Positions 10,056 through 50,910 of a DNA stretch of 64,000 nucleotides are shown piece after piece; the first letter of the stretch is position 1; each line of letters begins with the position of its first letter. The notes below the pieces were generated by a model. That model saw only the letters and a list, made by a program, of their open reading frames with translations. It was not told the origin of the DNA and did not search any database. This DNA is from Kocuria turfanensis (GTDB lineage: Bacteria > Actinomycetota > Actinomycetes > Actinomycetales > Micrococcaceae): positions 70,900 through 134,899 of the forward strand of contig NZ_CP014482.1 in the NCBI RefSeq assembly GCF_001580365.1. The letters run 5' to 3'. The translations under genes and the position numbers were made by a program.

Positions 10056-10661
10056 TTAGAGGCCGAAGGCGCCGCCTTCGAGGAGGATGACCACGCCCAG
10101 GCCGATCAGCACGATCGGGAACAGGATGTGTTCCCATCGTTCCAGGACTTCGGCGATGGGTTTGCGGGTGGCCACGTACTTGGCGATAGCCACCAGCACC
10201 GCGACCATGGCCAAAAAGGCGATGCAGTAGGCCACCATCGCGGTGGGGCCCACGGTGACGAATACGGGCACATAGACCCCGATGTTGTCCCCTCCGTTGG
10301 CGAAGGTGACTGCGGCGACGGTCCAGATGCTGACCTGTTTGCCGGCGACCTTCCCCTCGTCATCGTCATCATCGTCGTCGCTGCGCCAGACCTTCCAGGC
10401 CGCGATGAGGCCGAGGATCAGGGGGATGAGGCCGAAGTAGGGAATGGCCTCGGGCGGCAGGAAGGTGCTGGCGCCCAGGGTCACCAGCACGGAGGCGACC
10501 AGGATGCCGCCGAAGCCCAGGTACTGGCCGATCCCGATTTTGGCGGTGGTGCCGCGGGCCCCGGCTCCGCGGGCGAAGAACAGGGAGAGCACGATGATGT
10601 CGTCTATGTTGGTGGCCGCGAACAGCCCGATCGCCTGCAGCACGGGGGAGATGAGTTCCAT
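10056..10661 (-). CDS. cadD: CadD-family cadmium resistance transporter
   Basis: 201 residues with about five to six membrane segments. The N-terminal ATNIDDIIVLSLFFAR and FANGGDNIGVYVPVF are conserved acidic membrane motifs of the CadD (Pfam Cad) family, which confers Cd(II) resistance. A run of seven Asp residues and a Glu (RSDDDDDDDEGK) sits in the central loop and could bind metal. The gene follows an ArsR-family regulator on the same strand with a 236-base gap, so it is probably its target. Confidence 0.85.
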   Translation of the reverse strand: MELISPVLQAIGLFAATNIDDIIVLSLFFARGAGARGTTAKIGIGQYLGFGGILVASVLVTLGASTFLPPEAIPYFGLIPLILGLIAAWKVWRSDDDDDDDEGKVAGKQVSIWTVAAVTFANGGDNIGVYVPVFVTVGPTAMVAYCIAFLAMVAVLVAIAKYVATRKPIAEVLERWEHILFPIVLIGLGVVILLEGGAFGL

Positions 10662-10897: not shown

Positions 10898-11245
10898 TCA
10901 GTGTTCTTGGGTGGAGGTGCCGTAGGCGGGACACAGCGCGACCTGGGAACCGGTGGCTGCCAGCAGGGTCTCGGCGGCGGCGAGCACATCCATCAGCTCC
11001 GGGCGGGTCAGAGCGTAGAAGATCTGCCGCCCCTCGACGCGTCCGGCCACCAGCCCGCACTCGCGCAGGCAGGCCACATGGGCCGAGACGGTGGATTGAG
11101 CCAGGCCCGTTTCCTCCACCAGGTCCCGCACTCGGGCTTCACCGCCGGCCAGGCGCCCCACGATGGCCAGGCGAGTGGGATCGGACAGGGAGTGAAACAG
11201 GGCCACAGCCGGGGCCAGGCCGGTCGTACAACTAGTGTTCGTCAT
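10898..11245 (-). CDS. ArsR/SmtB-family metal sensor (CmtR/CadC-like) of cadD
   Basis: 115 residues with a winged-helix core. HSLSDPTRLAIV opens the fold, LAQSTVSAHVACLRECGLV is split over the recognition helix, and FYALTRPELMDVL forms the wing and dimer region. Cysteines in ACLRECGL plus a C-terminal LCPAYG match the arrangement of Cd/Pb sensors such as CmtR. Such proteins repress until metal binds. A -10 box TAGGAT lies 6 bases before the ATG, so the mRNA is probably leaderless, and the dyad ATCG-N8-CGAT overlaps this promoter. Strongly similar to the regulator at 14055-14441. Confidence 0.88.
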   Translation of the reverse strand: MTNTSCTTGLAPAVALFHSLSDPTRLAIVGRLAGGEARVRDLVEETGLAQSTVSAHVACLRECGLVAGRVEGRQIFYALTRPELMDVLAAAETLLAATGSQVALCPAYGTSTQEH

Positions 11246-11251
11246 GACCCG

Positions 11252-11272
11252 ATCCTATCGCCTAATTCCGAT
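11252..11272 (-). promoter_or_regulatory. Leaderless promoter and ATCG-N8-CGAT operator of arsR-cadD
   Basis: On the minus strand the -10 hexamer TAGGAT (11257-11252) is followed by 6 bases and the ATG. ATCG-N8-CGAT occupies 11257-11272 and overlaps the upstream edge of the -10. The same dyad with the same spacing recurs at 14434-14449 and 16584-16599, both at promoters. Confidence 0.6.
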
Positions 11273-11541
11273 TGATTGGACGGGGTGGATCTGACGTTGC
11301 CCGCAAGGGACGGTGCAGGGCCTTTTGTCCAGGGAGTGGTGGGTCTCGGGCTGAAGACTACCTCGACCCGAGCCTACCCGGCAGAGAAGCTGTTGTGGCC
11401 GCCGTGCAGGGGCCTGAGATAGTCATCGGCTCGGTGCGACGGGAGGCCCGGGGGCCTCGCCTGCGGTGGCTGTGGCCAAAGAGCGGCGGGCATGGGCGTG
11501 ACGAGTAAAGGCCCGGGGCGGGACCCGTGGTGGCCTGGGCC

Positions 11542-11570
11542 AGGGCCGCCGAGGAGGTCTCGGCGGCCCT
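11542..11570 (-). terminator. Hairpin downstream of lspA
   Basis: Twelve-base arms AGGGCCGCCGAG and CTCGGCGGCCCT around a 5-base loop, 27 bases past the lspA stop. It probably ends the arsR-P1B ATPase-lspA transcript. No U-tract is evident, as is common in high-GC genomes. Confidence 0.6.
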
Positions 11571-11596
11571 GACGTTACGCGATGAGCAGGTGGGGG

Positions 11597-12112
11597 CTAT
11601 TCGGCGGAGATGTCCTGGGGGCGCGGAGCCAGCAGCGTACCCAGGATCAAGAGGCCGACCCCGGTGGTGACGAAGACGTCGGCGAGATTGAAGGTGGGGA
11701 ACCACCCGGTGTGCAGGTAGTCCACCACCCCTCCCCCGTCGAGGCGGTCCAGGAAGTTTCCGATAGCGCCCCCGAGCATCAGGGTCGCTCCGGTACGGGC
11801 CAGCCCGGTCAGGGTGGGTGCCGCAACGAGCAAATACCAGATCAGCCCGGCGATGATCGCCCCGGTCGCGGCGATGATGACCCAGGAGGGCAGGGCCGCC
11901 CCGAGGCTGAAGGCCACCCCGGTGTTGTGGTGCAGCTGCAGCGTGAGCGGCCCCAGATCTACCGTGGTCCCGTCGGTGAGACGGGCTGAGGTCACGGCTT
12001 TGAGAATCAGATCGACGGTGGCCAGCGCCGCTGCCCCGGCCAGCAAGAGGGTCCGGGACCGGCGAGCAGATCGGGACGAAGGGCCGACCTGCCCGGCGAC
12101 GGGGGCGCTCAT
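11597..12112 (-). CDS. lspA: Lipoprotein signal peptidase LspA, metal-cluster copy
   Basis: 171 residues with four membrane segments. The catalytic Asp boxes are visible: GNFLDRL with GGVVDYLH, and PTFNLADVFV. HHNTGVAFSLG is the conserved NxG loop. LspA cleaves prolipoproteins after diacylglyceryl transfer. Its ATG overlaps the stop of the P1B-ATPase gene (ATGA at 12109-12112), so the copy belongs to the metal operon; LspA-like proteins occur in lead-resistance (pbr) clusters. Possible clients here are the lipoproteins at 7327 and 16743. Confidence 0.92.
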   Translation of the reverse strand: MSAPVAGQVGPSSRSARRSRTLLLAGAAALATVDLILKAVTSARLTDGTTVDLGPLTLQLHHNTGVAFSLGAALPSWVIIAATGAIIAGLIWYLLVAAPTLTGLARTGATLMLGGAIGNFLDRLDGGGVVDYLHTGWFPTFNLADVFVTTGVGLLILGTLLAPRPQDISAE

Positions 12113-14058
12113 GCGGCCGGTTCCAGAGCCGGTGCGGGCTGGGCGGTGGGCAGCTGGGTGCGGCGGGAGATCCGCCCGGCGCGTACCCCGTTGGCGATGA
12201 TCAGGATTTCGGCCACCTCGTGTACCAGCACCACCGCGGCCAACCCGAGGATCCCGAACAGGGCCAGGGGGATCAGCACCGCGATCAGCGCTAGGGACAC
12301 CCCGACGTTCTGCAGCATGATCGAGCGGGTCCGCCGGGCGTGCTCCAGCGCTTGGGGCAGGTGGTGGAGGTCCTCGCCCATCAAGGCGATGTCGGCGGTC
12401 TCGATGGCCACGTCGGTGCCCATTGCGCCCATGGCGATGCCGATGTCGGCGGTGGCCAGGGCGGGGGCGTCGTTGACGCCGTCACCGACCATCGCCGTGG
12501 GGCGCTGCGCCTTGAGGGTGCGGATGATCTCGGCTTTGTCCTCCGGGCGCAGGTCGGCGTGGACCTGGGTGATGCCGGCGGCTGCGGCCAGGGCATGGGC
12601 GGTGAGAGTGTTGTCCCCGGTGAGCATCGCGGTGGTGTATCCGGCGCGGTTGAGCCGGGTGATCACCTCTCGGGCTTCCGGGCGCAGCTCATCGCGCACC
12701 GCGATCGCCCCAAGAACCTTCCCGTCCTGCTCGATGAGCACGGCGGTGGCCCCGGAGCGCTGCATCCGCTCGATCTCGGCGGCCAGGGGCCCGGGGTCGA
12801 TCCACCCGGGCCGGCCCAGGCGCAGGCGGGCGCCGTCCAGGGTGCCGTAGAGCCCGGCCCCGGGCACGGTGTCCACCTGGGTCACCTCGGCCCGCTCAGG
12901 TGTGGCGGCGAGGATGGCCCGGGCCAGGGGGTGTTCGCTGCGGGCCTCCAACCCGGCGGCCAGCCCCAGCACCTGCTGCCGGCTCACCCCGCCAGTGGTG
13001 GCGACCTCGATGACGGCCGGGGCGTTGCGGGTGAGGGTGCCGGTCTTGTCCAAGGCGATGGTGCGGATCTTGCCCAGGGTCTCCACCGCGGCCCCGCCCT
13101 TGATCAGCACCCCGATGCGGCTGGCGGCTCCGACCGAGGCCACCACGGTGACGGGCACCGAGATCGCCAGGGCGCACGGGGAGGCGGCGACCAGCACGAC
13201 CAGGGCGCGTTCGAACCACAGGGCCGGCTCCCCGACGATGAACCCGTAGGCGATGATCAGGGCGGCGACGATGAGGATGCCCGGCACCAGGCGTTTGGCG
13301 ATCGCATCGGCCAGTCGCTGGCCGGGGCCTTTGCGGGACTGCTCGGTCTCGACGATGTGCACGATCTTCGCCAAGGAATTGTCCTCGGCGGTGCTGGTGA
13401 CCTCGACCTCCAGCGGGCCGGTGCCGTTGATGGACCCGGCGTAGACTTCCGCGCCGGGGCCGGCCTCCACGGGCACGGACTCCCCGGTCAGCGCCGAGGT
13501 GTCCAGGGAGGTGCGCCCGGTGAGGATCCGCCCATCGGTGGCCACCCGCTCCCCGGGCCGCACCACCATCCGGTCCCCCAGTACCAGCTCAGCCGGGGGC
13601 ACGGTGACCTGCACCCCGGCCCGGAGCACCGTGGCCTGATCCGGGACCAGCTCCAGCAGCGCGCGCAGCCCGCGCCGGGTGCGCGCCACCGAGTACTCCT
13701 CCAGGGCCTCGGCGATGGCGTAGAGGAAGGCCAGCATCGCCGCTTCCTCGATCTGCCCCAGGGCGACCGCTCCGACGGCGGCGATGGTCATCAGGGTCCC
13801 GACCCCGATCTTGCCCCGGGCCAGCCGGCGCAGCGTGGAGGGCACGAACGTCCATCCGGCCGCCAGCAGCGCGCCCGTCTCCAGGCTCAGCGCCACCCAC
13901 AGAGGAACCCCGGCCAGCGACAGGATCCAGCCGGCCAGCAGCAGGATCCCGGCCGCGGCGGCGAACCGGACGTCGCGCACCTGCCAGAAGCCCTCGGCCT
14001 CCTCCCCGGCCTCACCGGTTTCGTTCTTCTCGTCGCTGCATCCGCAGGCATCGCTCAT
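12109..14058 (-). CDS. P1B-type heavy-metal exporting ATPase
   Basis: 649 residues. No classical N-terminal HMA domain; instead a short Cys/acidic N-terminus (MSDACGCSDEK). The actuator TGES is at about 191-194, the membrane metal site SPC at 293-295 (AASPCALAIS), and the phosphorylation site DKTGT at 337-341, followed by LTGDN and GDGVNDAPAL. SPC rather than CPC, with VLVHEVAEILI in the last helices, resembles the P1B-4 (CtpD/CoaT-like) group, which handles Co, Ni, Fe or Cd/Zn. The genes on each side overlap it by 4 bases, giving an arsR-ATPase-lspA operon. I infer Cd/Pb/Zn/Co efflux. Confidence 0.9.
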   Translation of the reverse strand: MSDACGCSDEKNETGEAGEEAEGFWQVRDVRFAAAAGILLLAGWILSLAGVPLWVALSLETGALLAAGWTFVPSTLRRLARGKIGVGTLMTIAAVGAVALGQIEEAAMLAFLYAIAEALEEYSVARTRRGLRALLELVPDQATVLRAGVQVTVPPAELVLGDRMVVRPGERVATDGRILTGRTSLDTSALTGESVPVEAGPGAEVYAGSINGTGPLEVEVTSTAEDNSLAKIVHIVETEQSRKGPGQRLADAIAKRLVPGILIVAALIIAYGFIVGEPALWFERALVVLVAASPCALAISVPVTVVASVGAASRIGVLIKGGAAVETLGKIRTIALDKTGTLTRNAPAVIEVATTGGVSRQQVLGLAAGLEARSEHPLARAILAATPERAEVTQVDTVPGAGLYGTLDGARLRLGRPGWIDPGPLAAEIERMQRSGATAVLIEQDGKVLGAIAVRDELRPEAREVITRLNRAGYTTAMLTGDNTLTAHALAAAAGITQVHADLRPEDKAEIIRTLKAQRPTAMVGDGVNDAPALATADIGIAMGAMGTDVAIETADIALMGEDLHHLPQALEHARRTRSIMLQNVGVSLALIAVLIPLALFGILGLAAVVLVHEVAEILIIANGVRAGRISRRTQLPTAQPAPALEPAA

Positions 14059-14441
14059 CGGGTGATCTCCTGAATCTGGGGGGTGTCACGGGCATCCAGC
14101 CCGTAGTTCGGGCACAGACTCACGGCGTTGCCGGTGGCCGCCAGCAGCACCTCAGTGGCGGCCAGCACGTCCATCAGCTCCGGGCGGGTCAGCGAGTAGT
14201 ACACGCTGCGCCCCTGCGCCCGACCCTGCACCAGCCCGCAACCACGCAAGCACGCCACATGGCCGGACACGGTCGACTGGGCCAGCCCCAGCTCGCTGGT
14301 GAGATCACGCACCCGCACCTCCCCGGAAGCCAAGCGCTGCACAATCGCCAGCCGGGTCGGGTCACTGAGGGAGTGGAACAACGCCGCCGCCGGATCCAGC
14401 ACCTCACAGGGGGCATCCGGAACATACTCTGAAATCGTCAT
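14055..14441 (-). CDS. ArsR/SmtB-family metal sensor of the P1B-ATPase operon
   Basis: 128 residues, close paralogue of the regulator at 10898-11245: HSLSDPTRLAIVQRLASGE, LAQSTVSGHVACLRGCGLV and LTRPELMDVLAATEVLLAAT are nearly shared. Cysteines in ACLRGCGL and in LCPNYG are the candidate Cd/Pb ligands. Its stop overlaps the ATPase ATG. TATCAT lies 6 bases before the ATG, consistent with leaderless mRNA, and the operator dyad ATCG-N8-CGAT spans the start codon, suggesting tight autorepression. Confidence 0.9.
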   Translation of the reverse strand: MTISEYVPDAPCEVLDPAAALFHSLSDPTRLAIVQRLASGEVRVRDLTSELGLAQSTVSGHVACLRGCGLVQGRAQGRSVYYSLTRPELMDVLAATEVLLAATGNAVSLCPNYGLDARDTPQIQEITR

Positions 14442-14453
14442 GGACCGATGATA
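14434..14453 (-). promoter_or_regulatory. Leaderless promoter and operator of arsR-P1B ATPase-lspA
   Basis: On the minus strand the -10 TATCAT (14453-14448) is followed by CGGTCC and the ATG at 14441. ATCG-N8-CGAT covers 14434-14449, so a bound repressor would cover both the transcription start and the start codon. The divergent ccdA promoter lies in the same 81-base gap and could be affected too. Confidence 0.6.
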
Positions 14454-14522
14454 ACCGTGTTTTGGGCTGACAGTGGTCATGTGCGGTAGTCTCAGGGCGC
14501 CCCCTGGCCCGAGGAGATGGTG

Positions 14523-15272
14523 ATGACGATTGGCGGCTACTTCGCCGAGACGGTGAACTCCGGGGCCCTGCTCATCGCCGTGCCCTTGGCGGTGATCGCC
14601 GGGATCGTCTCTTTCATCTCCCCGTGCATCCTGCCGTTGGTGCCCGGCTACCTCGGCTACGTCTCCGGGCTGACCGATCCGACCCGGGCCGACAACCGGC
14701 GGCGGATGCTGGCCGGGGTGGGGCTGTTCATCCTGGGTTTCGCGGCGGTGTTCACTGTCTACGGGGCGGCCTTCGGCGCCATCGGGGGCTGGTTGGTGCG
14801 GTGGCAGGATCCGCTGATGCGGGTGTTGGGGGTGTTCGTGGCGCTCATGGGCCTGGTGCTGGTCGGGAAGTTCCCCTTCCTGCAGCAGACCAAGAAGCTG
14901 TCCTTCCAACCCCGCACCGGCATCGCCGGCGCCCCGCTGCTCGGGGTGGTCTTCGGCCTGGGTTGGACCCCCTGCATGGGCCCGACGCTGAGTGCGGTGC
15001 TGGCGCTGAGCACCACCACCGGCGGGGCCTGGCGCGGAGCCCTGCTGGGCTTCACCTACTGCCTGGGCCTGGGCATTCCATTCGTGCTGGTCGCGGCCGG
15101 GCTCAACTGGGTCACCACGACCCTGAGCTACATCCGCCGCAACATCCGCACCTTCAACATCGCCGGCGGATCCGTACTGATCGCCGTGGGGCTGCTGATG
15201 GTGACCGGGATCTGGATGCAGTGGATCTATCAGCTCCAAAGCCTCGCCGGCACCTTCATCACTCCTGTCTGA
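14523..15272 (+). CDS. ccdA: CcdA, membrane thiol-electron carrier for cytochrome c maturation
   Basis: 249 residues and six predicted membrane helices (DsbD core). Redox cysteines lie in [17 protein letters not shown] (helix 1) and [13 protein letters not shown] (helix 4), the signature of CcdA. It carries reducing equivalents from cytoplasmic thioredoxin to extracytoplasmic thioredoxin-like proteins such as ResA. GAGGAG ends just before ATG 14517, too close for use, so ATG 14523 is the better start. Divergent from the metal operon; resA, resB and ccsA follow after cysK. Confidence 0.92.
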
Positions 15273-15353
15273 GCCCGGGAGAACATCCCCGGCTTGTGAC
15301 GCACCGAATCCCAACACCCACCGATTCACCACACCACCACCCAGGAGCACACC

Positions 15354-16289
15354 ATGGCGAAGATCTACCACGACGTGACCGAGCTCGTGGGTCGCACCCC
15401 GCTCGTCCACCTCAACCGGCTCGACGAGGGCCTGCCCGGCAACGTGGCCGTGAAGCTGGAGTTCTACAGCCCCGCCAGCTCCGTCAAGGACCGCATCGGC
15501 GTGGCCATCGTCGACGCCGCCGAGAAGTCCGGGAAGCTCAAGCCCGGCGGCACGATCGTCGAGGGCACCTCCGGCAACACCGGCATCGCCCTGGCCATGG
15601 TCGGCGCGGCCCGCGGCTACAAGGTGATCCTCACCATGCCCGAGACCATGTCCACCGAGCGGCGGGTCATGCTGCGCGCCTACGGCGCCCAGATCGTGCT
15701 CACCCCGGGCGCGGAGGGCATGCGCGGGGCGGTCGAGAAGGCCCAGGAGATCGTCGAGTCGACCGAGAACGCCGTGCTGGCCAAGCAGTTCGCCAACGAG
15801 GCCAACCCGGCGATCCACTACGCCACCACGGGCCCCGAGATCTGGGCGGACACCGACGGCGAGGTCGACGTCTTCGTCTCCGGCGTGGGCACCGGCGGCA
15901 CCATCACCGGGGCGGGCCGCTACCTGCGCGAGCAGAAGCCGGACATCCGCCTGCTCGTGGTCGAGCCGGCCGACTCCCCGCTGCTGACCGAGGGCAAGGC
16001 CGGCCCGCACAAGATCCAGGGCCTCGGCGCGAACTTCGTCCCCGACAACCTCGACCGGCAGATCTACGACGACGTCTACGACGTGACCGTCGAGGACTCC
16101 GTGCGGGTCGCCCGCGAGCTCGGCACCAAGGAGGGCATCCTCGGCGGGATCTCCTCGGGCGCCATCGTCTGGGCCGCCCTGCAGGAGGCCGCCAAGGAGG
16201 AGAACCGGGACAAGCTGATCGTGGCGATCGTGTGCGACTTCGGGGAGCGCTACATCTCGACGCTGCTCTACGAGGACATCCGCGGCTGA
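15354..16289 (+). CDS. cysK: Cysteine synthase (O-acetylserine sulfhydrylase) CysK
   Basis: 311 residues. The PLP lysine is in SSVKDRIGVAIVDAA, the substrate loop is EGTSGNTGIALAM, and the phosphate loop is SGVGTGGTITGAGRYL, all classical for CysK. Makes cysteine from O-acetylserine and sulfide. It lies between ccdA and resA, separating two parts of the cytochrome c maturation set, and could supply cysteine for thiols under metal stress. No serine acetyltransferase gene is nearby. CAGGAG precedes the ATG. Confidence 0.95.
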   Translation: MAKIYHDVTELVGRTPLVHLNRLDEGLPGNVAVKLEFYSPASSVKDRIGVAIVDAAEKSGKLKPGGTIVEGTSGNTGIALAMVGAARGYKVILTMPETMSTERRVMLRAYGAQIVLTPGAEGMRGAVEKAQEIVESTENAVLAKQFANEANPAIHYATTGPEIWADTDGEVDVFVSGVGTGGTITGAGRYLREQKPDIRLLVVEPADSPLLTEGKAGPHKIQGLGANFVPDNLDRQIYDDVYDVTVEDSVRVARELGTKEGILGGISSGAIVWAALQEAAKEENRDKLIVAIVCDFGERYISTLLYEDIRG

Positions 16290-16579
16290 GGCCCTGCCAG
16301 GGTTGCCGACCCACATCACCGATCCGCAGCTGCCGCAAGCCATCACTAAGGCCGAGCTGATGGCCCGCGTGCTGGCCGAGAACGGCCTGGGGCACGTGGG
16401 TCTCGCCCTCGATTTGGAGTCCCCGTAGCTGTCCGCCGGAGGAGAACTGCGCGTGGTCATTCCCTGGAGTCCGCCCTAACCGCGGCACCTCCGTCTCGGG
16501 CCGCATCGCCATTGCCCGGAGAGCCAATGCCCCCGCAGCCGGTGGTCGCCGCCCCGACGGCAACGGTGATTCCCGTTGC
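16290..16579. other. Non-genic stretch with a possible coding relic
   Basis: A short frame from about 16303 to a TAG at 16426-16428 translates with coding-like character (HITDPQLPQAITKAELMAR) but has no convincing start and I do not recognise it. The remainder leads into the resA promoter. A decayed gene end is possible. Confidence 0.35.
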
Positions 16580-16602
16580 TATGATCGACGTATAACGATC
16601 AT
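16580..16602 (+). promoter_or_regulatory. Promoter with ATCG-N8-CGAT operator upstream of resA
   Basis: ATGATCG (16581-16587) and CGATCAT (16596-16602) form a perfect 7-base inverted repeat around 8 bases. Inside it is the ATCG-N8-CGAT core seen at both arsR promoters. TATGAT at 16580-16585 is a plausible -10. The leader to the resA ATG at 16743 would be about 150 bases. Confidence 0.6.
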
Positions 16603-16742
16603 CTCTGAGTGTGCCGGCGTGCGCCTCAGGTCCTCGACAACAGGCCCGCCGTGTTGCGCTCAGAGGCCTATCGGCTTCCCGGTTCATCGTTTCCGGGGTC
16701 AGCCCCTACCCGTCCCCGAGCCCGTTTCGACCCTGAGGTGAA

Positions 16743-17372
16743 ATGCCCGTGCCCTCGAACTCTTCACTGCCCACCCACCCGTCCCGCCGCCGTGTGCTCT
16801 CCTTGGCCGGTGCAGGAGTCCTCGGGGTGGTCATGGCCGGCTGCGGTGCGGAGGAAGATCCCCTGGCCCAACAGGCCAACACGGGAGATGAGAAGGGCTA
16901 CATCGCCGGGGACGGCACCGTCTCGGAGTACGCCCCGGATCAGCGGGGGGAGCCGGTGCAGTTCAGCGGCACCCTTTTCGATGGGACCGAGCTCTCGGCC
17001 GAGGACTTGCGGGGGAAGCCCGCGCTGCTGAACTTCTGGTACGCGGCCTGCCCTCCGTGCCGGGTGGAGGCCCCGGACCTCGCCGAACTCGCCCAGCAGT
17101 TCGAGGGGCAGATCGCCTTCTACGGGGTAAACCTGCGCGATGATCAGGCCACGGCCGAGGCCTTCGAGCGGACCTTCGGGATCCCGTACCCCTCCTTCGA
17201 AGACAAGGACGGGAAGGTGGTGATGGCCCTGAACGCCTATGTGCCCCCGCGGGCGGTGCCCACCACGCTGGTGCTCGACGCCCAAGGCCGGGTCGCAGCC
17301 CGCATCCTCGGGATCGCAGACCGGTCCATCCTCGAGACCCTCCTCGAGGACACGGTGGCCGAGACAGCATGA
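16743..17372 (+). CDS. resA: ResA/CcsX-like thioredoxin-fold lipoprotein
   Basis: 209 residues. The N-terminus combines a twin-arginine-like SRRRVLSLAG with a lipobox VVMAGCG, so export is probably by Tat followed by lipidation. The thioredoxin active site is NFWYAACPPCRVEAP (CxxC), and cis-proline lies in PPRAVPTTLVLD. In System II such proteins reduce apocytochrome c CxxCH cysteines before heme attachment, taking electrons from CcdA. First gene of the resA-resB-ccsA run, behind the dyad at 16581. GAGGTGA precedes the ATG. Confidence 0.9.
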   Translation: MPVPSNSSLPTHPSRRRVLSLAGAGVLGVVMAGCGAEEDPLAQQANTGDEKGYIAGDGTVSEYAPDQRGEPVQFSGTLFDGTELSAEDLRGKPALLNFWYAACPPCRVEAPDLAELAQQFEGQIAFYGVNLRDDQATAEAFERTFGIPYPSFEDKDGKVVMALNAYVPPRAVPTTLVLDAQGRVAARILGIADRSILETLLEDTVAETA

Positions 17373-17421: not shown

Positions 17422-19170
17422 ATGAGCACCACTAGCAGCAGGCAGAGCACCCCTGAGGACACCCCCGGCAGGGGCCCCCGAGGCTCTTCGCCCACCGGAC
17501 CCGGCAAGAACCCCAGGGATGTCGAGCTGCCGGCGCTGGGGCCGGTCGGGATGGCCCGGTGGGCGTGGGCGCAGCTGACGAAGATGAACACCGCCCTGTT
17601 CCTGCTGCTGTTGCTGGCGGTGGCGGCGGTGCCCGGCTCGACCTTCCCGCAGCGGATCCAGGACACGGGTGCGGTGGCCGACTACATCGATGCCAACCCG
17701 ACCCTGGGCCCGTGGCTGGACCGGCTGCAGTTCTTCGACGTGTTCTCCTCCGTGTGGTTCTCCGCGATCTACATCCTGCTGTTTGTCTCCTTGGTGGGGT
17801 GCGTACTGCCCCGGGCGGGCAAGCACTGGCGGGCCTGGCGGGCGCAGCCCCCGCGCACCCCTAAACGGCTGGAACGGCTGCCCGAGCACCGCCGCCTGGT
17901 CCTCGGTGGGCCCGCGGACGCCCCGGCCCCGGACGAGGTCGTGGCCCAGGCCGCCCGCCTGCTGGGCAAGCGCGGCTACCGGGTGGCCGTGCGCGACACA
18001 GGAGGACCGGCGCCGTCGGTGGCCGCCGAGCGGGGAATGTGGAAGGAGGTCGGCAACGTCGTCTTCCACCTGGCGCTGCTGGGCGTGCTGGTCTCCGTGG
18101 CCGTGGGGTCCCTGTTCGGCTTCAAGGGCCAGAAGATCCTCGTGGAGGGCGATTCGTTCGCCAACTCGTTGATCAACTACGACGCGTTCATCCCGGGCAC
18201 CAACTTCGACGCCGACCAGCTGGAGCCGTTCTCCCTCACCCTGGAGAACTTCGAGGTCGAGTTTTACCGCGACACCGCCGTTCCCAGTCAGTACGGGACT
18301 CCGGTGGACTTCACCGCCGAGGTCACCGTCCAGCAACCCGGAGGACAGCCGCGGCAGGAGACCCTGAAGGTCAACGCCCCGGTCAACGTCGACGGGGTGA
18401 AGTCGTTCCTGATCGGCAACGGCTACGCCCCCCTGATCCGGGTGACCGACGGCAACGGCGACGTCGCCTTCGAGGGGCCGGTGGTGGGCATTCCTTCCGA
18501 CGGGGTCTACACCTCCTCACTCGTGCTCAAGGTCCCCGACGCTGCCCCGGACCAGCTAGGCTTCACCGGCCTGCTGCTGCCCACCGCCGTCACCGGGGCC
18601 GATGGGCTCCCGCGGTCGGCGGATCCGGGACTGGCCAACCCGAAGCTGATCCTGTCCTCCTACTCCGGGGACCTCGGACTGGACTCCGGAGTCCCCCAGA
18701 ACGTCTACGCGCTTGACGTCGAAGGGCTCACCGAGCTCAACGGCATGCTCACCCCCGATGGGCCGATCACCCTGGATGCCGCGGGCCCGGTCTACGAGCT
18801 GCCCCAGGGCAAGGGCAGCATCGAGTTCCTCGATGTGAAGCGCTACGTGGGCCTGGATATCGTCTACGACCCGGGACGGACGGGCGCCTTCGTGTCCTTC
18901 GTGCTGGCCTTCACGGGCCTGTTGATGTCGATGTTCATCGCCCGCCGCCGCCTCTGGGTGAGGGCCTCGAAAGGCGTCGACAAGGACGGGGCCCCAACCA
19001 CAATCCTGGAGTACGGTCTGCTGGCTCGCGGGGAGGACCCCCGGCTGGCGGCCGAGGCGCAGCGGCTGGGCGAGCTGTTCACCCAGCAGTGGGGCACCGC
19101 GCCCCCGCCCGCTGACGCTGCCGCACACCCCAAAACGAGCAGGGCCCACAGCGGGCCGGCCCACAACTGA
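17422..19170 (+). CDS. resB: ResB (Ccs1), cytochrome c synthetase subunit
   Basis: 582 residues, normal for the family. Membrane segments occur near residues 50-70 (NTALFLLLLLAVAAV), 105-125, 205-230 and near the C-terminus (FVSFVLAFTGLLMSMF), with a large extracytoplasmic domain between the third and fourth. SQYGTPVDFTAEV falls in this soluble domain. ResB and CcsA together form the System II heme transporter and synthetase. Follows resA after 49 bases and precedes ccsA by 13 bases. Confidence 0.93.
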   Translation: MSTTSSRQSTPEDTPGRGPRGSSPTGPGKNPRDVELPALGPVGMARWAWAQLTKMNTALFLLLLLAVAAVPGSTFPQRIQDTGAVADYIDANPTLGPWLDRLQFFDVFSSVWFSAIYILLFVSLVGCVLPRAGKHWRAWRAQPPRTPKRLERLPEHRRLVLGGPADAPAPDEVVAQAARLLGKRGYRVAVRDTGGPAPSVAAERGMWKEVGNVVFHLALLGVLVSVAVGSLFGFKGQKILVEGDSFANSLINYDAFIPGTNFDADQLEPFSLTLENFEVEFYRDTAVPSQYGTPVDFTAEVTVQQPGGQPRQETLKVNAPVNVDGVKSFLIGNGYAPLIRVTDGNGDVAFEGPVVGIPSDGVYTSSLVLKVPDAAPDQLGFTGLLLPTAVTGADGLPRSADPGLANPKLILSSYSGDLGLDSGVPQNVYALDVEGLTELNGMLTPDGPITLDAAGPVYELPQGKGSIEFLDVKRYVGLDIVYDPGRTGAFVSFVLAFTGLLMSMFIARRRLWVRASKGVDKDGAPTTILEYGLLARGEDPRLAAEAQRLGELFTQQWGTAPPPADAAAHPKTSRAHSGPAHN

Positions 19171-19183
19171 GAGGACATCACCG

Positions 19184-20263
19184 ATGACCGTCAATGAGGA
19201 CCTGGGCGCCTGGAGCCAGTTGTTCATGCTCCTGGCCGCCATGACCTACCTGGTGGCCTTTGTGGCCTTCGCCTGGGACATGGCCTCCCACTCCAAGATC
19301 CTGCGCAGGGCCCGACCCGAGCAACACAACAGATCGGAAGGGCAACTGGTCGGCGCGGCAACCACTGCCACGGTGAACACGGTGGAGGCCGATGATTCCC
19401 GGGCCGGGCTGGGCACCGGTGACCGCGGCCGCGGGTACCCGGCCTCCGCCCAGTCGGTGCTGGCCGAACACGTCGCTGACTCCTCCATGCGCTACACCGG
19501 GACCCGCCGCCCAGCGGCCCGGGCGGCCGTGACCGTCATGGTCCTGGCCTTCGCCCTGCACGCCGTGGCCGTGATGGCCCGGGCGGTGGCCGCCGGACGG
19601 GTGCCCTGGGGCAACATGTACGAGTTCGCCACCACCGGGGCACTCGTCGTGGCCGGGGTCTACCTGGGTGCGCTGCTGCTGAGGGACCTGCGCTTCGTGG
19701 GCACCCTTGTCACCGGGCTCGTGGTGATCATGCTCACCGCCGCCACCATCGGCTTCCCCACCCCGGTGGGCCCGCTGGTCCCCGCGCTGCAGTCCTGGTG
19801 GCTGGTCATCCACGTGTCCATCGCCGTGGCCGCCTCCGGGATCTTCACCATCACCTTCGCCATGGCCGTCCTCCAACTGCTGCAGGCCCGCCGGGAGAAA
19901 GCCATTCTGGCCGGTGAGGCCCCCGGCATGGGCTTCCTGGGCATGGTGCCCTCCGCCCAGGCGCTGGAGAACCTGTCCTTCCGGCTCAACGCGATCGGCT
20001 TCGCGTTCTGGACCTTCACCCTGGCCGCCGGCGCCATCTGGGCCGAGCAGTCCTGGGGCCGCTACTGGGGCTGGGACGTCAAAGAAGTCTGGACGTTCGT
20101 GATCTGGGTCGTCTACGCCGCCTATATGCACGCTCGCGCCACCCGCGGCTGGACCGGCACCCGCTCAGCCTGGCTGTCCATCGTCGGATACCTGTGCGTC
20201 ATCTTCAACTTCGCCGTCGTCAACACGGTCTTCACCGGCCTGCACTCTTACTCCGGGCTGTAA
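19184..20263 (+). CDS. ccsA: CcsA/ResC, heme-handling subunit of cytochrome c synthetase
   Basis: 359 residues. The heme-handling WWD-type signature appears as WGRYWGWDVKEVWTFVIW near residue 300, with conserved histidines in flanking helices (VIHVSIAVAASG, YMHARATRGW). A long soluble linker between helices 1 and 2 (about 45-100) is actinobacterial in style. Last gene of the maturation operon. With CcdA, ResA and ResB it completes System II. No cytochrome c gene itself is in the window. Confidence 0.94.
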   Translation: MTVNEDLGAWSQLFMLLAAMTYLVAFVAFAWDMASHSKILRRARPEQHNRSEGQLVGAATTATVNTVEADDSRAGLGTGDRGRGYPASAQSVLAEHVADSSMRYTGTRRPAARAAVTVMVLAFALHAVAVMARAVAAGRVPWGNMYEFATTGALVVAGVYLGALLLRDLRFVGTLVTGLVVIMLTAATIGFPTPVGPLVPALQSWWLVIHVSIAVAASGIFTITFAMAVLQLLQARREKAILAGEAPGMGFLGMVPSAQALENLSFRLNAIGFAFWTFTLAAGAIWAEQSWGRYWGWDVKEVWTFVIWVVYAAYMHARATRGWTGTRSAWLSIVGYLCVIFNFAVVNTVFTGLHSYSGL

Positions 20264-23198: not shown

Positions 23199-23467
23199 AA
23201 GCATGATCGCGACTGAAGGATGACATTACCCTGGCGAGGTACCAACGTCAGATGCCGATCGAAGCGCTACAGCGGTAATACCTTCCAAGACGGGATCCCG
23301 AGCCCCTGCGATGGCGACCTGATGCAACGCGTCCGACCGGACGCGGCCGGCGATCACCCGATGTCTGTCAGCGGAACATGGGCCACGGATGATGAGTCTG
23401 ATGGGCAAGCTGGGTCTGACACCGTCGACGGTGTCGACCCCCGTGGGAGCACCGCGACCGGTGGGTG
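23199..23467. other. Non-genic stretch with an 18-base perfect palindrome
   Basis: No gene recognised. GACACCGTCGACGGTGTC (23418-23435) is a perfect palindrome 33 bases past the VKOR stop. It could be a terminator stem or a protein-binding site. Confidence 0.4.
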
Positions 23468-24115
23468 TCAGAGGCCGGTGAAGGCGGTGAAGAAGCGGAA
23501 GAACACCGAGGCGGCCACCGCGACGTAGGTGATGGACACCAGGGTCCAGGCCCAGTCGGCGGCGAAGCGCACCAGCCCCGCCGGGGCGGGGATCACGCCG
23601 TGGGCGAGGTTGCGGACGGTGAGCAGGATGGTCAGCGGGATCATCGCCGCCCACACGATCATGCAGTACAGGCACAGGATGTAGATGGAGAACAGCGCCT
23701 GGGACCACAACCAGATCGCGAACACCGCCCCGGCGGTGACCCCGACCTGCAGCCCGATCCAGTACCAGCGCCCGAACCGCGCCCCCGAGAGGGCCGCCAT
23801 GGCGGTGGTAATGACCACGGCGAAGGCGACGATGCCGATCAGCGGGTTGGGGAAGCCGAACAGTTCCGACTGCCAGGTGCCCATGACCTGCCCGCAGGAG
23901 ACCCAGGGGTTGATGTCGCAGCTGGTGACGTGGCCGGGGTCGCGGTAGAGGGCCAGGCGCTCGAGCACCAGGACACCGGAGGCGATCCAACCGATCACCC
24001 CGGTCACCAGCAGCAGGACCGCGAAGGGCCGGTACCGGGCGAAGCCGGGCAGGTGGGTCTCGGTGGCCGGGCCGGCGTCGGTGTGATGGGTGGTGCTGGT
24101 GGTGGGGTCAGCCAT
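23468..24115 (-). CDS. Vitamin K epoxide reductase (VKOR) family protein
   Basis: 215 residues with five membrane helices. Loop cysteines occur in TSCDINPWVSCGQVMG, and the active CxxC is ILCLYCMIVW. Bacterial VKOR re-oxidises DsbA using quinone, standing in for DsbB in actinobacteria. Its ATG overlaps the end of the CopD-CtaG gene by 8 bases, and the DsbA gene is at the head of the same run, so VKOR and DsbA are almost certainly partners. Confidence 0.93.
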   Translation of the reverse strand: MADPTTSTTHHTDAGPATETHLPGFARYRPFAVLLLVTGVIGWIASGVLVLERLALYRDPGHVTSCDINPWVSCGQVMGTWQSELFGFPNPLIGIVAFAVVITTAMAALSGARFGRWYWIGLQVGVTAGAVFAIWLWSQALFSIYILCLYCMIVWAAMIPLTILLTVRNLAHGVIPAPAGLVRFAADWAWTLVSITYVAVAASVFFRFFTAFTGL

Positions 24116-26108
24116 GGTGGGTGTCCTTGACGGTTCCGTTGTCGATGACAGGGGTGTCGGCCTGGGGTCTTCGGGCCAGGACGGCCAGGGCGGTGGCCAA
24201 CAGGGGCAGGGCCCCGGCCAGGAGGATGGAGCTGGCCGCGGATTGCTGGTCCGCCAGCGGGGCGGGGCCCCAGTCCCTCCCCAGCCCGGAGAACCACTCC
24301 GGTTGGATCAGCGCTGGGGACAGGGCGGTGGCCCCCGCCCAGAGCCCCAGGGCGGTGGCTGTCCCGACCAGCGTCAGAGCTTGGGTGTGCACCGCAGCCC
24401 GGTCGCGTGGTGGGACCAGCACGGCGGCGGCGAAGATCAGGCCCAGGACCAGGGCGGTGGTATTCATCAGTTCGTGGCCGACGTGGGTGTGCAGGGCCAG
24501 GGCGAAGGCGGGGGTGTAGTAGAAGACACCGAGCCCGGCCAGGACCAGGACCGCGGCCGGGATCGGGTGGGCCATCAGCGCCCCGGTCCGGGAGGTGCGC
24601 CATGCGGTGGTGAGCTCGCGCGCCCCGGTGGAGCCGTCGGTGCGGGCCGGCACCAGGGCCGCGGCCAGAAGCCCGGGTCGTCCGGCGATCAGCAGCAACG
24701 GCACCGGGAAGGCCAGCAGCAGGTGGGCGGTGGTGTGGATGCTGAACAGGATCGGGGCGTAGACGGCCGGCAGCCCGCAGGTGACATAGACCAGCAGCAC
24801 GAGTCCGGCCAGGAACGCCACCGTGCGCGCCACCGGCCACGGTGTCCTGGTGTAGCGCAGGCGTCGCGCCCCGGCCAGGTAGAGGCAGGCTGCGAGGATC
24901 GCCACGGCGATCCACAGCCAGTCCAGGCGCCACTGGGTGACCCACCCGGAGGCGCTCAGCGGTGGGGGCAGCAGGTAGCCGGTGAGGATCTCGGCGGCGG
25001 TGATGTCCGGTTCCCGTTCCAGGGGCACCGGGGTGGGGGTGCGCCCCAGGGCCACGCCCAGGGCCATCACCGCGCAGAGGATGAAGGCCTCCACGGTGAT
25101 CAGCCGCCACACCCTGCCCCGGCTCGCAGGCCCGGCAGCAATGACCCGGCCGTTGAGGTACCCGAGCACCCCCAGGGCCACGGTGGCGATCGTCTTGGCG
25201 ATCACCAGTGCCCCGTAGCCGGAGGCCAGCCCGTCCCACCCACCGATCCGGTAGACGGTGTTGATAACCCCGGAGACGGCCACCACGACGAAAGCCACCG
25301 CGGCCAGGGCGGAGAAACGCACCAGCACGCCGTGCGTGGCCTGCGGGGTGGTCAACAGCGGGACGAGCAGGGCGAGCACGATGATCCCGCCGGTCCAGAT
25401 CCCGGCCCCGAGCAGGTGCAGGGCCAAAGCGTTGACGGCCCCGTTGTGGTCATCGACCCCGGCCACGTGCCCGAGCTGGGACAGCGGAATGACGGCGGCC
25501 AGGGCCGCCACGGTGGTGGCGGTCACCGGCCCCGGGGAGCGGGCGAGCACGGCCAAGGTGGTGGTGAGCGCGGCCATCACCGCGGTCACCGCCCACGCCT
25601 GGCCGGGAATCAGGCGGGTCACGTAGTAGCCCAGCTGTCCGGTGAACTCGGTCGAGCCCGAGACGGGGGCACCGATGGTGTCGGCGTAGCTGAGCACGAT
25701 GATCGCCACCGCGGCCAGCGTCCACACCGCCGCCGCCCCCGCGGCCACGTTCAGCACCCGGGCGAAGGCCGGGTGCTCGGCTCCGGGTGTTCTCGCGCCG
25801 TGGGCCGGGGTGGACCGGGGCACGACGGTGGTGGCGAAGACCAGCCCTGCCCAGGTGATGGACATGGCCAGATGGTGCACGGTCGTGGCCGCCGGCAGTC
25901 CCCAGCGCACCATCGCCCCGGGATCGAGCACCTCCCGGGCCGCGGTGGCCCCGGAGGAGCTCAGGGCCACCCACAGCACGGTGAGGGTCATCAGGCCGAC
26001 AACGATGAGAGCAGCGGTGGCGACGCCCCGGCGCCGTCCAACCACTGCCAGGGCCGGCGCCGACGGGGCGGGCGGTGGTGTGGTGGTGGTGCGGGATGGA
26101 CTGGTCAT
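24108..26108 (-). CDS. CopD-CtaG fusion membrane protein, copy 1
   Basis: 666 residues. The N-terminal half has CopD-like helices with PLSQLGHVAG and ALALHLLGAGIWTGG; the C-terminal half is a CtaG/Caa3-type domain with FSIHTTAHLLL, ALHTHVGHELMNTT and WFSGLGRDWGPAPLADQQ. CopD-type proteins import copper and CtaG helps insert Cu into cytochrome oxidase, so a copper-delivery role is likely. It starts 4 bases after dsbA and overlaps the VKOR gene by 8 bases. Paralogue at 39096-41255. Confidence 0.88.
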   Translation of the reverse strand: MTSPSRTTTTPPPAPSAPALAVVGRRRGVATAALIVVGLMTLTVLWVALSSSGATAAREVLDPGAMVRWGLPAATTVHHLAMSITWAGLVFATTVVPRSTPAHGARTPGAEHPAFARVLNVAAGAAAVWTLAAVAIIVLSYADTIGAPVSGSTEFTGQLGYYVTRLIPGQAWAVTAVMAALTTTLAVLARSPGPVTATTVAALAAVIPLSQLGHVAGVDDHNGAVNALALHLLGAGIWTGGIIVLALLVPLLTTPQATHGVLVRFSALAAVAFVVVAVSGVINTVYRIGGWDGLASGYGALVIAKTIATVALGVLGYLNGRVIAAGPASRGRVWRLITVEAFILCAVMALGVALGRTPTPVPLEREPDITAAEILTGYLLPPPLSASGWVTQWRLDWLWIAVAILAACLYLAGARRLRYTRTPWPVARTVAFLAGLVLLVYVTCGLPAVYAPILFSIHTTAHLLLAFPVPLLLIAGRPGLLAAALVPARTDGSTGARELTTAWRTSRTGALMAHPIPAAVLVLAGLGVFYYTPAFALALHTHVGHELMNTTALVLGLIFAAAVLVPPRDRAAVHTQALTLVGTATALGLWAGATALSPALIQPEWFSGLGRDWGPAPLADQQSAASSILLAGALPLLATALAVLARRPQADTPVIDNGTVKDTHHG

Positions 26109-26112
26109 CGGG

Positions 26113-26796
26113 TCAGTCGGTGGCTGCGGTCTCGACAGCGGCCCGGAAGGCTTCCAGGGATTCGGGGTTGAGCACTTCTCCGTCGAGGTAGAACGTCGGG
26201 GTCCCGGCCACGCCCAGGGCTTCACCGTCAGCCACATCGAGCTTGATCCGCTCTTCGGTGGCCGGGTCGGCCACCGCGGCATCGAAGGCGGCCATGTCCA
26301 GGCCGAGGTCCTCGGCGAAGCCGCGGAAGAGTGCGCTCTGGTCCTCGGCCGATTCCCCCCATTCGGCCTGGGTCTCGAACATGCGCTGATACATGGCCTC
26401 GTACTGTCCCTGCTGGGCGGCGGCCTCCACGGCCACCGCGGCGTTGACGGAGTTGCGGTGACCCGGCAACGGGAAATAGCGGTGCACGAAGGTGACGGTG
26501 TCGCCGTACTCGGCCCGCAGGTCTTCGACGAAGGGGTAGGCGGCCCGGCAGGCCTCGCACTCGTAGTCCAGGAACTCCACCAGCACCGCCTGCTCATCCG
26601 GGGCCTTCGAGAGCACTCGGCTGTTCTCTCGCACCAGCTGCCCCACATCTTCGGGTACTTCAGGGGTGGAATTGGCACGGGCGATGAGGATCGGGATGGC
26701 CACGGCGGCCACGATGGCGACCAGGAGGATCCACACGAGGATCTTGGCCTTCGAGGGTTTCCGCTGGGGGGCGCTCGTACTGGCGGTAGTGCTCAC
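26113..26796 (-). CDS. DsbA-like thiol oxidoreductase
   Basis: 227 residues. A single N-terminal membrane anchor (about 20-40, LVWILLVAIVAAVAIPILI) precedes a thioredoxin fold. The active site is FLDYECEACRAAYPF (CxxC), and the cis-proline loop is GVAGTPTFYLDGE. It should oxidise exported proteins and be recycled by the VKOR encoded two genes later. Copper proteins and cytochrome assembly factors in the window are plausible clients. It begins a dsbA/copD-ctaG/VKOR operon, 53 bases after the CDF gene. Confidence 0.92.
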   Translation of the reverse strand: MSTTASTSAPQRKPSKAKILVWILLVAIVAAVAIPILIARANSTPEVPEDVGQLVRENSRVLSKAPDEQAVLVEFLDYECEACRAAYPFVEDLRAEYGDTVTFVHRYFPLPGHRNSVNAAVAVEAAAQQGQYEAMYQRMFETQAEWGESAEDQSALFRGFAEDLGLDMAAFDAAVADPATEERIKLDVADGEALGVAGTPTFYLDGEVLNPESLEAFRAAVETAATD

Positions 26797-29340: not shown

Positions 29341-29765
29341 CGGGCACCGGCAGAATTCGGCGATGTGCCCGAAGGCGCCGACAGGATCAGTGGCCGGCAC
29401 GCATCGAAGAGTACAAGAAGATCACGAAACAATCACAATCCCATTCGGGAATGTATAGGAACTATAAAGAAAACAATCAAGATTTGATGAAGTTGTAAAT
29501 TTTTCTCGACTTTTTCCTATTAATGTCCTGCAAATTATGGCGCCTCGTGGCGGGCGGCACATGCCTTTGTGGTGCGTGCGGACGGTACGGGGAGCCGTTG
29601 ACCGCGCTGTGGCGGGGACGCGTGCCGCCCTAAAAGGCTCGGTGGCCGATGTCAGGGAAATTTCCACGGATGGCGGTACAAGAATCGTCCCCGAGCAGCT
29701 CCAGCTATGTGCGCTACGGTAATCGGCGTTTGAATACGTACGGCATTTGGGCCCGAGGAGACCGC
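29341..29765. other. AT-rich divergent promoter region before ctaD
   Basis: Contains the most AT-rich stretch in the window (about 29430-29540, with TATAAAGAAAACAATC). No gene seen. It probably drives the riboswitch-NlpC transcript leftwards and ctaD rightwards. Confidence 0.5.
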
Positions 29766-42967: not shown

Positions 42968-43084
42968 GTGAAGTTCGACCTACTCGTATCGCTGTCACCG
43001 CGCGGCGCCGCAGCTCTCCTCCCGGTGGGGCCGGGCTCCCCGCCACTCTTCTGCCAGGGCTGCCGGGCCGATGGTGGGCTCTGA
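42968..43084 (+). pseudogene. Truncated copy of the small protein encoded at 46509
   Basis: From GTG 42968, after the shared leader TGAGGAGCACGACCGC, the frame reads VKFDLLVSLSPRGAAALLPV, similar to METDRLRSLSPHGSAAPPAG of the intact gene. It keeps QGCRADGG opposite KGCGADAA and then ends in TGA. The remaining 55 residues are missing, so a deletion has joined this stub almost directly to SURF1. Confidence 0.65.
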
Positions 43085-50657: not shown

Positions 50658-50910
50658 TCTCCGTTCGCACGCCAGGATCAGCACCCGTGGCCGGGTCCGC
50701 GCAAAAGCTGACGGGCCCAGACGTGAACCGGTTCCCATGCTCGGCCCAGCTGTGCGCCGGGGACCGGAATCCACCGGGGCTCTTCGGCCCCGATCCCCAA
50801 TATCGCGGGCAGGTCCGGGGAGAGGCCGGCGTGGCAGGCCCGTCCCTCCTGGACCGGTCCTGGGCTCAGGGCCCGATCCGGACCTCGGGACCGTTCTGTG
50901 GCATGCAAAA

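Follow-up and report, generated by a model that had tools for sequence, protein, structure and literature searches.

CmtR (Rv1994c) of Mycobacterium tuberculosis is an ArsR/SmtB repressor that represses without metal and is released by cadmium or lead, its metal ligands being a Cys-x3-Cys pair in helix 4 and a C-terminal cysteine. It is described as a cadmium/lead sensor (PMC10961391), and the passages on CmtR describe no res genes under its control. In Bacillus vietamensis 151-6, cadA, an ArsR-family regulator, cadD, ccdA and a thiol-disulfide oxidoreductase gene lie within a few kilobases, and ccdA and the oxidoreductase gene rise 131- to 373-fold under cadmium (PMC6975044). Mesorhizobium metallidurans has a zinc- and cadmium-induced ccdA downstream of cadA, and an lspA is zinc-induced as well (PMC3668242). 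A CYT module on plasmids of Antarctic Arthrobacter unites ccdA genes, a thiol oxidoreductase and a transcriptional regulator (PMC6305408). Here we analyze a stretch of 64,000 nucleotides from Kocuria turfanensis (Micrococcaceae; contig NZ_CP014482.1, positions 70,900 to 134,899; the whole stretch is hereafter called the window), in which cadmium-type efflux genes with two ArsR-family regulators, arsR1 and arsR2, adjoin the cytochrome c maturation genes resA, resB and ccsA. One short dyad, ATCG-N8-CGAT, stands at both regulator genes and before resA. Our comparisons make it probable that this res operon is controlled by a CmtR-type repressor via a captured promoter.

None of the described systems has this composition in the passages that treat it. 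The regulator of B. vietamensis is of the CadC type, its cadA, cadC and cadD are not induced, and the passages on the locus mention neither ResB/CcsA nor an operator (PMC6975044). M. metallidurans is a Proteobacterium, for which the corresponding passages name no heme-ligation genes and no regulator of the locus (PMC3668242), and the CYT module has a COG3682 regulator and was read by its authors as sulfur metabolism (PMC6305408). System II (ResA-CcdA-ResB-CcsA) is complete on the replicon of the window as judged by profile matches, but its order there is resA-resB-ccsA, with ccdA apart beside arsR2. The sequence-only reading that preceded this study knew of no described link between metal efflux and cytochrome c assembly. 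This was too broad with respect to thiol reduction, since cadmium- and zinc-induced ccdA, and cadmium-induced ccdA plus a thiol reductase near cadA, have been published (PMC3668242, PMC6975044). With respect to heme ligation it stands: the literature searched, whose reach mostly ended at subscription papers, did not describe ResB/CcsA as controlled by a metal repressor of the ArsR family. The novelty would lie in the presence of heme ligation in a cadmium-type regulon.

A scan of the window finds the exact dyad, with identical spacing, at the three places named by the sequence-only reading and at no fourth place (Table 1). Each copy meets a -10-like box, as had been claimed: TATCAT (arsR2, minus strand) and TATGAT (resA) enter the left arm, and TAGGAT (arsR1) overlaps by one base. 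The earlier reading missed that the start codon of arsR2 lies inside its dyad. The count itself proves little, because at least three matches were reached in 6 of 100 shuffles of the window (expectation 0.82 matches), and it was dropped as not significant in favor of conservation. The host genome holds 14 exact dyads in 4,159,643 bases (C1, the 3.7-Mb contig, has seven, the window-bearing contig C3 five and C5 two), three of them within the 5.3 kb considered here, for which the genome density predicts 0.018. The Poisson probability of this clustering is about 1e-6 at genome density and about 1e-3 for C3 alone, both calculated after the fact. A symmetric weight matrix made from 56 distinct sites outside Kocuria was scored on the window, on the 14 exact dyads of the host and on 701,933 bp of control DNA. 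The four best places of the window are those listed with scores in Table 1, and the next one reaches 2.5 bits. Among the exact dyads of the host only the three in question exceed 6 bits, the resA copy being the highest, while the remaining 11 score at most 5.9 bits and the control DNA at most 8.1 bits. The extended form TATNATCG-N8-CGAT is exact at just two places of the genome, arsR2 and resA. An accidental palindrome of 4+4 bp in AT-rich promoter DNA, to which the shuffle result lends some weight, could by no means easily explain a score of 20.4 bits at resA when 702 kb of control DNA never exceed 8.1, a match of the resA site to an intact cmtR-like promoter over 43 bp, or the presence of the dyad at its regulator in all 21 fetched near loci and in 71 of the 80 named ones (see below). 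Already disfavored, chance is a very improbable explanation.

The tracking of the regulator was followed in two samples, whose loci, genomes and contigs carry the prefixes L, G and C. ArsR2 was searched in 59 genomes (the host and relatives), and loci returned by that search were inspected. The fetched loci with 52-100% identity number 21 (L015-L035, among them that of the host); every one has the exact dyad near the start, and in 20 of them the dyad also contains a start codon (exception L022). The dyad is found in none of the nine fetched loci at 40-45% identity (L036-L044). Of three lower-ranked copies that were also fetched from these genomes, L092 and L103 have the dyad and L101 has none. 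The second sample comprised 80 named loci from GTDB genomes, out of 554 CmtR-type loci. The helix motif was located in 75 of these, with an exact dyad upstream in 71, one mismatch in three and two mismatches in one, and 73 of these 75 show ATG, GTG or TTG at dyad positions 9-11. The five loci without a located helix motif have no exact dyad at arsR either, so that exact dyads amount to 71 of 80. The consensus of the 58 distinct sites is approximately GCTATC-ATCG-YYNT-ATG-RCGAT, and the -10 hexamer TATNAT is nearly fixed before the start. A cadA-type gene follows the regulator within 1.5 kb in 75 of the 80 named loci, and lspA within 4 kb in 53. The dyad and its tie to ArsR are firmly supported, and ATCG-N8-CGAT is almost certainly the operator of the CmtR-type (cadmium/lead) ArsR clade. 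The arsR promoter would be leaderless, with the operator lying across the -10 box and the start codon.

A second ArsR clade uses the same leaderless ATCG-N8-CGAT operator (L028-L035; seven Kocuria genomes and one of another genus). Its helix is of the form SKHLxFLxEC and it lacks the first cysteine of Cys-x3-Cys. Cross-talk between this clade and the CmtR-type operator is possible.

The recognition helices of ArsR1 and ArsR2 read AQSTVSGHVACLR and AQSTVSAHVACLR, respectively, and are nearly identical as the sequence-only reading had it; the proteins are 70% identical, and ArsR2 of Kocuria carniphila (L109) is identical to that of the window. With 85.3 and 89.2 bits both proteins belong to the winged helix-turn-helix family NF033788 (ArsR/SmtB; cut-off 55). 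Against the CmtR equivalog NF047906 they reach 60.2 and 62.9 bits, far under the curated cut-off of 150, and we therefore call them CmtR-type and not CmtR, a sister clade at most. CmtR is nevertheless their best equivalog, and the best PDB match of the clade profile, as a sequence match, is 2JSC, which is Rv1994c; in its alignment the Cys-x3-Cys pairs of the DNA-reading helix region coincide, with the C-terminal cysteine outside the aligned part. Cys64 and Cys68 are invariant in 11 of 11 aligned members and Cys110 is present in 10 of 11. Both window proteins possess the CmtR-type Cys-x3-Cys and the later cysteine, features shared with CmtR. By analogy with CmtR, ArsR1 and ArsR2 would repress without metal and be released by cadmium or lead. 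Alternatively, ArsR2 might sense reactive sulfur or oxidants by the same cysteines, with ccdA, cysK and resA answering thiol stress. The position of cysK between ccdA and resA fits such a regulon, the model of the sulfur-sensing BigR is also matched (51.7 bits for arsR1, 46.7 bits for arsR2), and H2O2 is reported to decrease DNA binding of the CmtR of Mycobacterium bovis (PMC7863910). CmtR, however, is closest both among the equivalogs and in the PDB, and a cadA-type ATPase gene comes directly after the regulator here and within 1.5 kb of it in 75 of the 80 named loci. We consider a thiol-stress regulon improbable.

As read from the sequence, the dyad at resA belongs to the leftover promoter and first codons of a third cmtR-like gene, now lost; this remnant, its former ATG changed to ATA, is fused to a resA leader. 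An intact cmtR-like gene in G010 (contig C41) begins GTTGCTATGATCGACGTATGGCGATCATGTCTGACTGTGC, and its counterpart in the window reads GTTGCTATGATCGACGTATAACGATCATCTCTGAGTGTGC (91% over 43 bp). Upstream of it, the segments 16294-16366 and 16353-16483 align with separate parts of the gene preceding arsR in G010 (remnant query 5-77 with 81% and 64-194 with 79% identity to G010:C41). This G010 gene shares 63% identity with the 'coenzyme F390 synthetase' that ends the cad cluster of Arthrobacter sp. FB24, and neither of the two has a Pfam match at 1e-5. From about 16616 downstream the DNA matches resA leaders (G008 69%, G018 70%, G003 71%). With the cmtR-like match upstream and the resA-leader match downstream, the junction therefore lies near 16615. 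The usual Kocuria resA leader reads CAGGGGTCAACCAGCTTCCCGGTTCATAATG with small changes, and its GTCAAC/T and CATAAT (or near form) boxes are found in 21 of the 23 resA leaders L050-L072, the exceptions being L054 and L068, the latter from another genus. Neither box is present in the window copy or in the three relatives nearly identical to it; as judged by eye, G016, G003 and G018 also lack them in their extra resA copies (L091, L097, L107). The fusion occurs in G000, G003, G018 and G023 of the 27 genomes of the genus, and also in the named loci L108 and L109, which may be the same genomes as those counted. The G003 copy shows seven base differences over the intergenic DNA of the fusion, none within the dyad. 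From these comparisons resA-resB-ccsA seems to have captured a metal-regulated promoter.

A less eventful history would make the resA site the scar of a deleted cmtR-like gene, which may still bind ArsR2, with the res genes transcribed by read-through from ccdA-cysK or from an unrecognised promoter. The site is indeed a remnant by descent, the gap between cysK and resA has no terminator and no consensus promoter was found in it, and the fusion exists in only four near-identical copies among the 27 genomes of the genus. Against this, the palindrome is perfect although the remnant gene beside it is broken, the res reading frames are intact despite the loss of the usual resA promoter boxes (ResA is 100% identical in three relatives), and the same operator reached res genes elsewhere by other routes. 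A dead relic is in our view rather unlikely.

The exact operator stands at res promoters not only in the window but also in L143, L160, L166, L267 and L269. In L143, L160 and L166 (one Arthrobacter metagenome-assembled genome and two contigs of Paenarthrobacter nicotinovorans SSBW5) it lies between divergent resB-ccsA and resA and forms one of two well-conserved blocks of the intergenic region. Plasmid 3 of Arthrobacter sp. FB24 and pSI-1 of AK-1 have the same dyad between ResB and TlpA, bringing the total of dyads between resB and tlpA/resA to five Arthrobacter/Paenarthrobacter loci. FB24 is reported to be resistant to cadmium, lead and zinc (PMC3910542), and it is this resistant strain that carries the operator-res link on plasmid 3. 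Elsewhere the res genes are part of the arsR-cadA run itself. G016 has arsR2-cadA-lspA-resA-resB-ccsA on one strand with ccdA-cysK divergent, and the plasmid of K. rosea strain 13 has the same order, with the run continuing over the point where its record starts. The Arthrobacter loci L139 and L181, which form one clade on the tree, read arsR-cadA-lspA-resB-ccsA-resA-ccdA, L195 (G074) has a close-packed arsR-cadA-lspA-cadD-resA-ccdA-resB-ccsA, and L144 reads arsR-cadA-lspA-resA-ccdA. A second conserved palindrome, TTCTACCTTANGTAGAATT, is present about 40-60 bp from the CmtR-type dyad in L143, L160, L166, L267 and L269; in the first three it reads TTCTAC-N5-GTAGAA.

In a quick tree (LG+G4) of 82 ResB+CcsA rows, in which the linked group was named after the maps had been seen, the eight strictly linked ResB rows require five state changes, four of them forced by starred branches, which may be gains or losses alike. 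A single-clade origin of the linked rows is rejected (p-AU 8e-55). Two candidates had been dropped from the strict set: L131, where about 5 kb, read as further genes, separates the CmtR-type gene from resA-ccdA-resB, and L191, which offers proximity only. With both included (10 rows) the number of changes is seven. At the level of sequence, a tie of cytochrome c maturation genes to the CmtR-type operator in several lineages is supported. The joint Cd/Pb-cytochrome regulon proposed by the sequence-only reading is partly supported, in terms of sequence, by a clade operator and by these recurrent ties. It is refined in one respect, in that the resA copy would be a relic cmtR-like promoter and would not have arisen within an ordinary res promoter.

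ResB was found in 137 of 139 genomes of the family, 16 of which have two or three matches. The control of 40 fetched single-copy res loci contains six dyads in 701,933 bp, none of them within 400 bp upstream of a res gene, and no ArsR of at least 50% identity lies within these stretches. Three loci from multi-ResB genomes have a dyad, always at an ArsR gene, whose identity is 75% in L195, 70% in L191 and 53% in L188; it is in line with res in L195, a neighbor in L191 and about 5 kb away from resA in L188. The 80 CmtR-type loci include ccdA at 50% identity or more in 20 cases and resB in eight, two of the latter being of the window's own type and one (L131) a mere neighbor. Ten of 94 ResB-bearing plasmid records were opened: in two the res promoter bears the dyad, in one the res genes belong to an arsR-cadA run and in four the dyad is confined to arsR, while three have no dyad in the stretch, in two of which the CmtR-type regulator lies outside it. 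The cad-res link is repeated, not general. Efflux and cytochrome assembly genes could also simply gather on the same plasmids, both being of use in polluted soils; shared operators would then be by-products of shuffling, and res induction would bring no specific benefit. That res and ccdA genes are arranged in many ways on these replicons, next to several regulators, speaks for this, as does the motif scan of the window, which finds no good dyad at its COX1, CtaG and SURF1 genes. Co-travel alone would hardly predict that the eight strictly linked ResB rows sit on separate tree branches, nor that none of the 40 single-copy loci has the dyad upstream of res. We hold it to be a serious but somewhat unlikely account.

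Other metal- or regulator-linked clusters were seen in the same survey. The plasmid clusters of L270-L274, of the type arsR-CtaG-resB-SURF1 with other ArsR proteins, form a second kind of metal-linked respiratory cluster, and a search for ATCG-N8-CGAT beside the res genes in these opened clusters gave none. In G003 and G018 a further res operon (L107:9600-12410, also L097) faces a gene of the penicillinase-repressor family (BlaI/CopY), the type to which COG3682 belongs, together with what reads as a likely M56 peptidase. By eye, a TACTA-N7-TAGTA-like dyad lies upstream of this operon, between it and the divergent BlaI/CopY gene; here a different regulator may likewise have captured System II.

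If the res operon is under CmtR-type control, the following scenario would apply. A bound dimer over the -10 end and start codon of the leaderless arsR should block RNA polymerase, and binding of cadmium or lead to the alpha-4 cysteines should release it. A deletion would have removed the third cmtR-like gene and left its promoter and operator; a second resA-resB-ccsA operon would then have joined behind the orphan promoter, its own promoter decaying and the old start codon becoming ATA. ArsR2, and probably also ArsR1, would repress resA-resB-ccsA alongside cadA-lspA and cadD, so that metal would induce a spare System II to which the replicon adds CcdA, ResA, ResB and CcsA. The benefit of such metal-switched assembly would, as a hypothesis, be the replacement of metal-damaged thiol or heme-ligation steps. 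Copper reportedly hits cytochrome c assembly, as work of Durand from 2015 is said to show. Cadmium lowers cytochromes c and b in a cadA mutant of Rubrivivax (PMC7283390).

Several observations weigh against this scenario. A consensus scan of 16200-16780 found no sigma-70 promoter and a -35 box is not evident, and without a terminator before resA the transcription of ccdA-cysK could run into it. The four genomes with the resA site are 98-100% identical over the intergenic DNA, which makes them weak evidence of selection. One control dyad falls within the resB gene of L258, which shows that such a site may occur in a res operon by chance. No dyad at all occurs in 28 of the 31 loci fetched from multi-ResB genomes (14 of those genomes), and seven of the ten opened plasmid records have neither the dyad at res nor res in an arsR-cadA run. 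With respect to the operator itself, nine of the 80 named loci lack an exact dyad, and so does L101, the arsR1-like/CmtR-like gene of G016.

Table 1. Features of the Kocuria turfanensis window around the efflux and cytochrome c maturation genes (positions within the window; operators are predicted).
Feature	Position	Strand	Basis and remarks
cadD-type cadmium resistance transporter	10056..10661	-	PF03596 109.7 bits; TIGR00779 118.5, below cut-off 181.65
arsR1, CmtR-type ArsR/SmtB repressor	10898..11245	-	NF033788 above cut-off; CmtR best equivalog, 60.2/150 bits
operator dyad 1 (predicted)	11257..11272	.	exact; 13.1 bits; just upstream of arsR1 -10-like TAGGAT, one-base overlap
lspA, signal peptidase II	11597..12112	-	TIGR00077 and NF011362 above cut-off
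cadA-type P1B ATPase	12109..14058	-	TIGR01512 520.6 bits, above cut-off
arsR2, CmtR-type ArsR/SmtB repressor	14055..14441	-	Cys64-x3-Cys68 and Cys110; best PDB match of clade profile 2JSC
operator dyad 2 (predicted)	14434..14449	.	15.0 bits; arsR2 start codon 14439-14441 inside; -10 TATCAT enters arm
ccdA (DsbD transmembrane family), divergent from arsR2	14517..15272	+	PF02683
cysK, cysteine synthase A	15354..16289	+	TIGR01139 above cut-off
gene remnant, two pieces, middle missing	16294..16483	+	intact homologue just upstream of G010 cmtR-like gene
putative captured promoter and first codons of lost cmtR-like gene	16572..16614	+	91%/43 bp to intact G010 promoter/start
-10 TATGAT 16580-16585; former ATG now ATA 16592-16594	within 16572..16614	+	sequence
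operator dyad 3 (predicted)	16584..16599	.	20.4 bits, window maximum; perfect palindrome with flanks, ATGATCG-N8-CGATCAT
homologue of usual Kocuria resA promoter, GTCAAC and CATAAT boxes gone	16665..16694	+	comparison of resA leaders
resA/tlpA-type thiol-disulfide reductase	16743..17372	+	PF00578/PF08534; GTG 16749 a possible start
resB, System II heme ligation	17422..19170	+	PF05140 458.5 bits
ccsA/ccsB, System II heme ligation	19184..20263	+	TIGR03144 above cut-off
possible fourth operator, one mismatch, AACG-N8-CGAT	23244..23259	.	14.8 bits; about 120 bp upstream of P450 gene 21846-23126 (-)

The gene identities given by the sequence-only reading (cadD, lspA, P-type ATPase, resA, resB, ccsA) find Pfam support, as does ccdA, and between ccdA and resA stands cysK. 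The P450 behind the possible fourth operator is 45% identical to the P450 beside arsR on plasmid 3 of FB24 and, judged from its site, is a possible further member of the regulon. Outside the window, exact operators were seen upstream of a likely cation-efflux transporter (L119:8410) and of a CadD-like gene (L178:7203), both translations being read by eye; these two genes are further likely members of the regulon.

Contig C3 measures 134,899 bp, its best plasmid match is Kocuria rosea strain 13, and from size and match it is probably a plasmid. The same cluster sits on a 3.9-Mb contig in the relative G003, and the host keeps a separate resA-ccdA-resB-ccsA on its 3.7-Mb contig. The contig that carries the metal genes also bears the respiratory assembly genes COX1 (29649-31478), SURF1 (43071-44102) and VKOR (23471-24115), a CtaG/CopD fusion (24111-26678) and a second CtaG (50737-51906), and a CDF exporter and Nramp are likewise encoded in the window. 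This set fits a kit for respiration under metal stress, which is not to say that it proves one. No convincing c-type cytochrome was seen in the window, where two open frames contain CxxCH and neither was read as a likely cytochrome; chromosomal cytochromes are assumed to be the substrates of the maturation genes on the replicon.

Our analysis provides a predicted operator for a widespread actinobacterial clade of metal repressors. It also points to a way in which a regulon may grow by promoter capture: the repressor gene is deleted, promoter and operator are kept, and a new operon docks behind them. More broadly, though here our confidence falls short of even, Micrococcaceae replicons may carry a metal-switched spare kit for respiratory assembly, in which a CmtR-type cadmium/lead repressor commands efflux and a complete System II (perhaps also the P450). 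Several lineages would have recruited it, one of them by capturing the promoter of a decapitated cmtR gene, since heme ligation would be a main target of soft metals outside the cytoplasm. The claim thereby raised is that replacement of cytochrome c assembly may be part of cadmium/lead resistance. As far as the sequences tell, bacteria appear to answer cadmium by regulating the assembly machinery itself, which suggests that they rebuild the respiratory chain as part of metal resistance.

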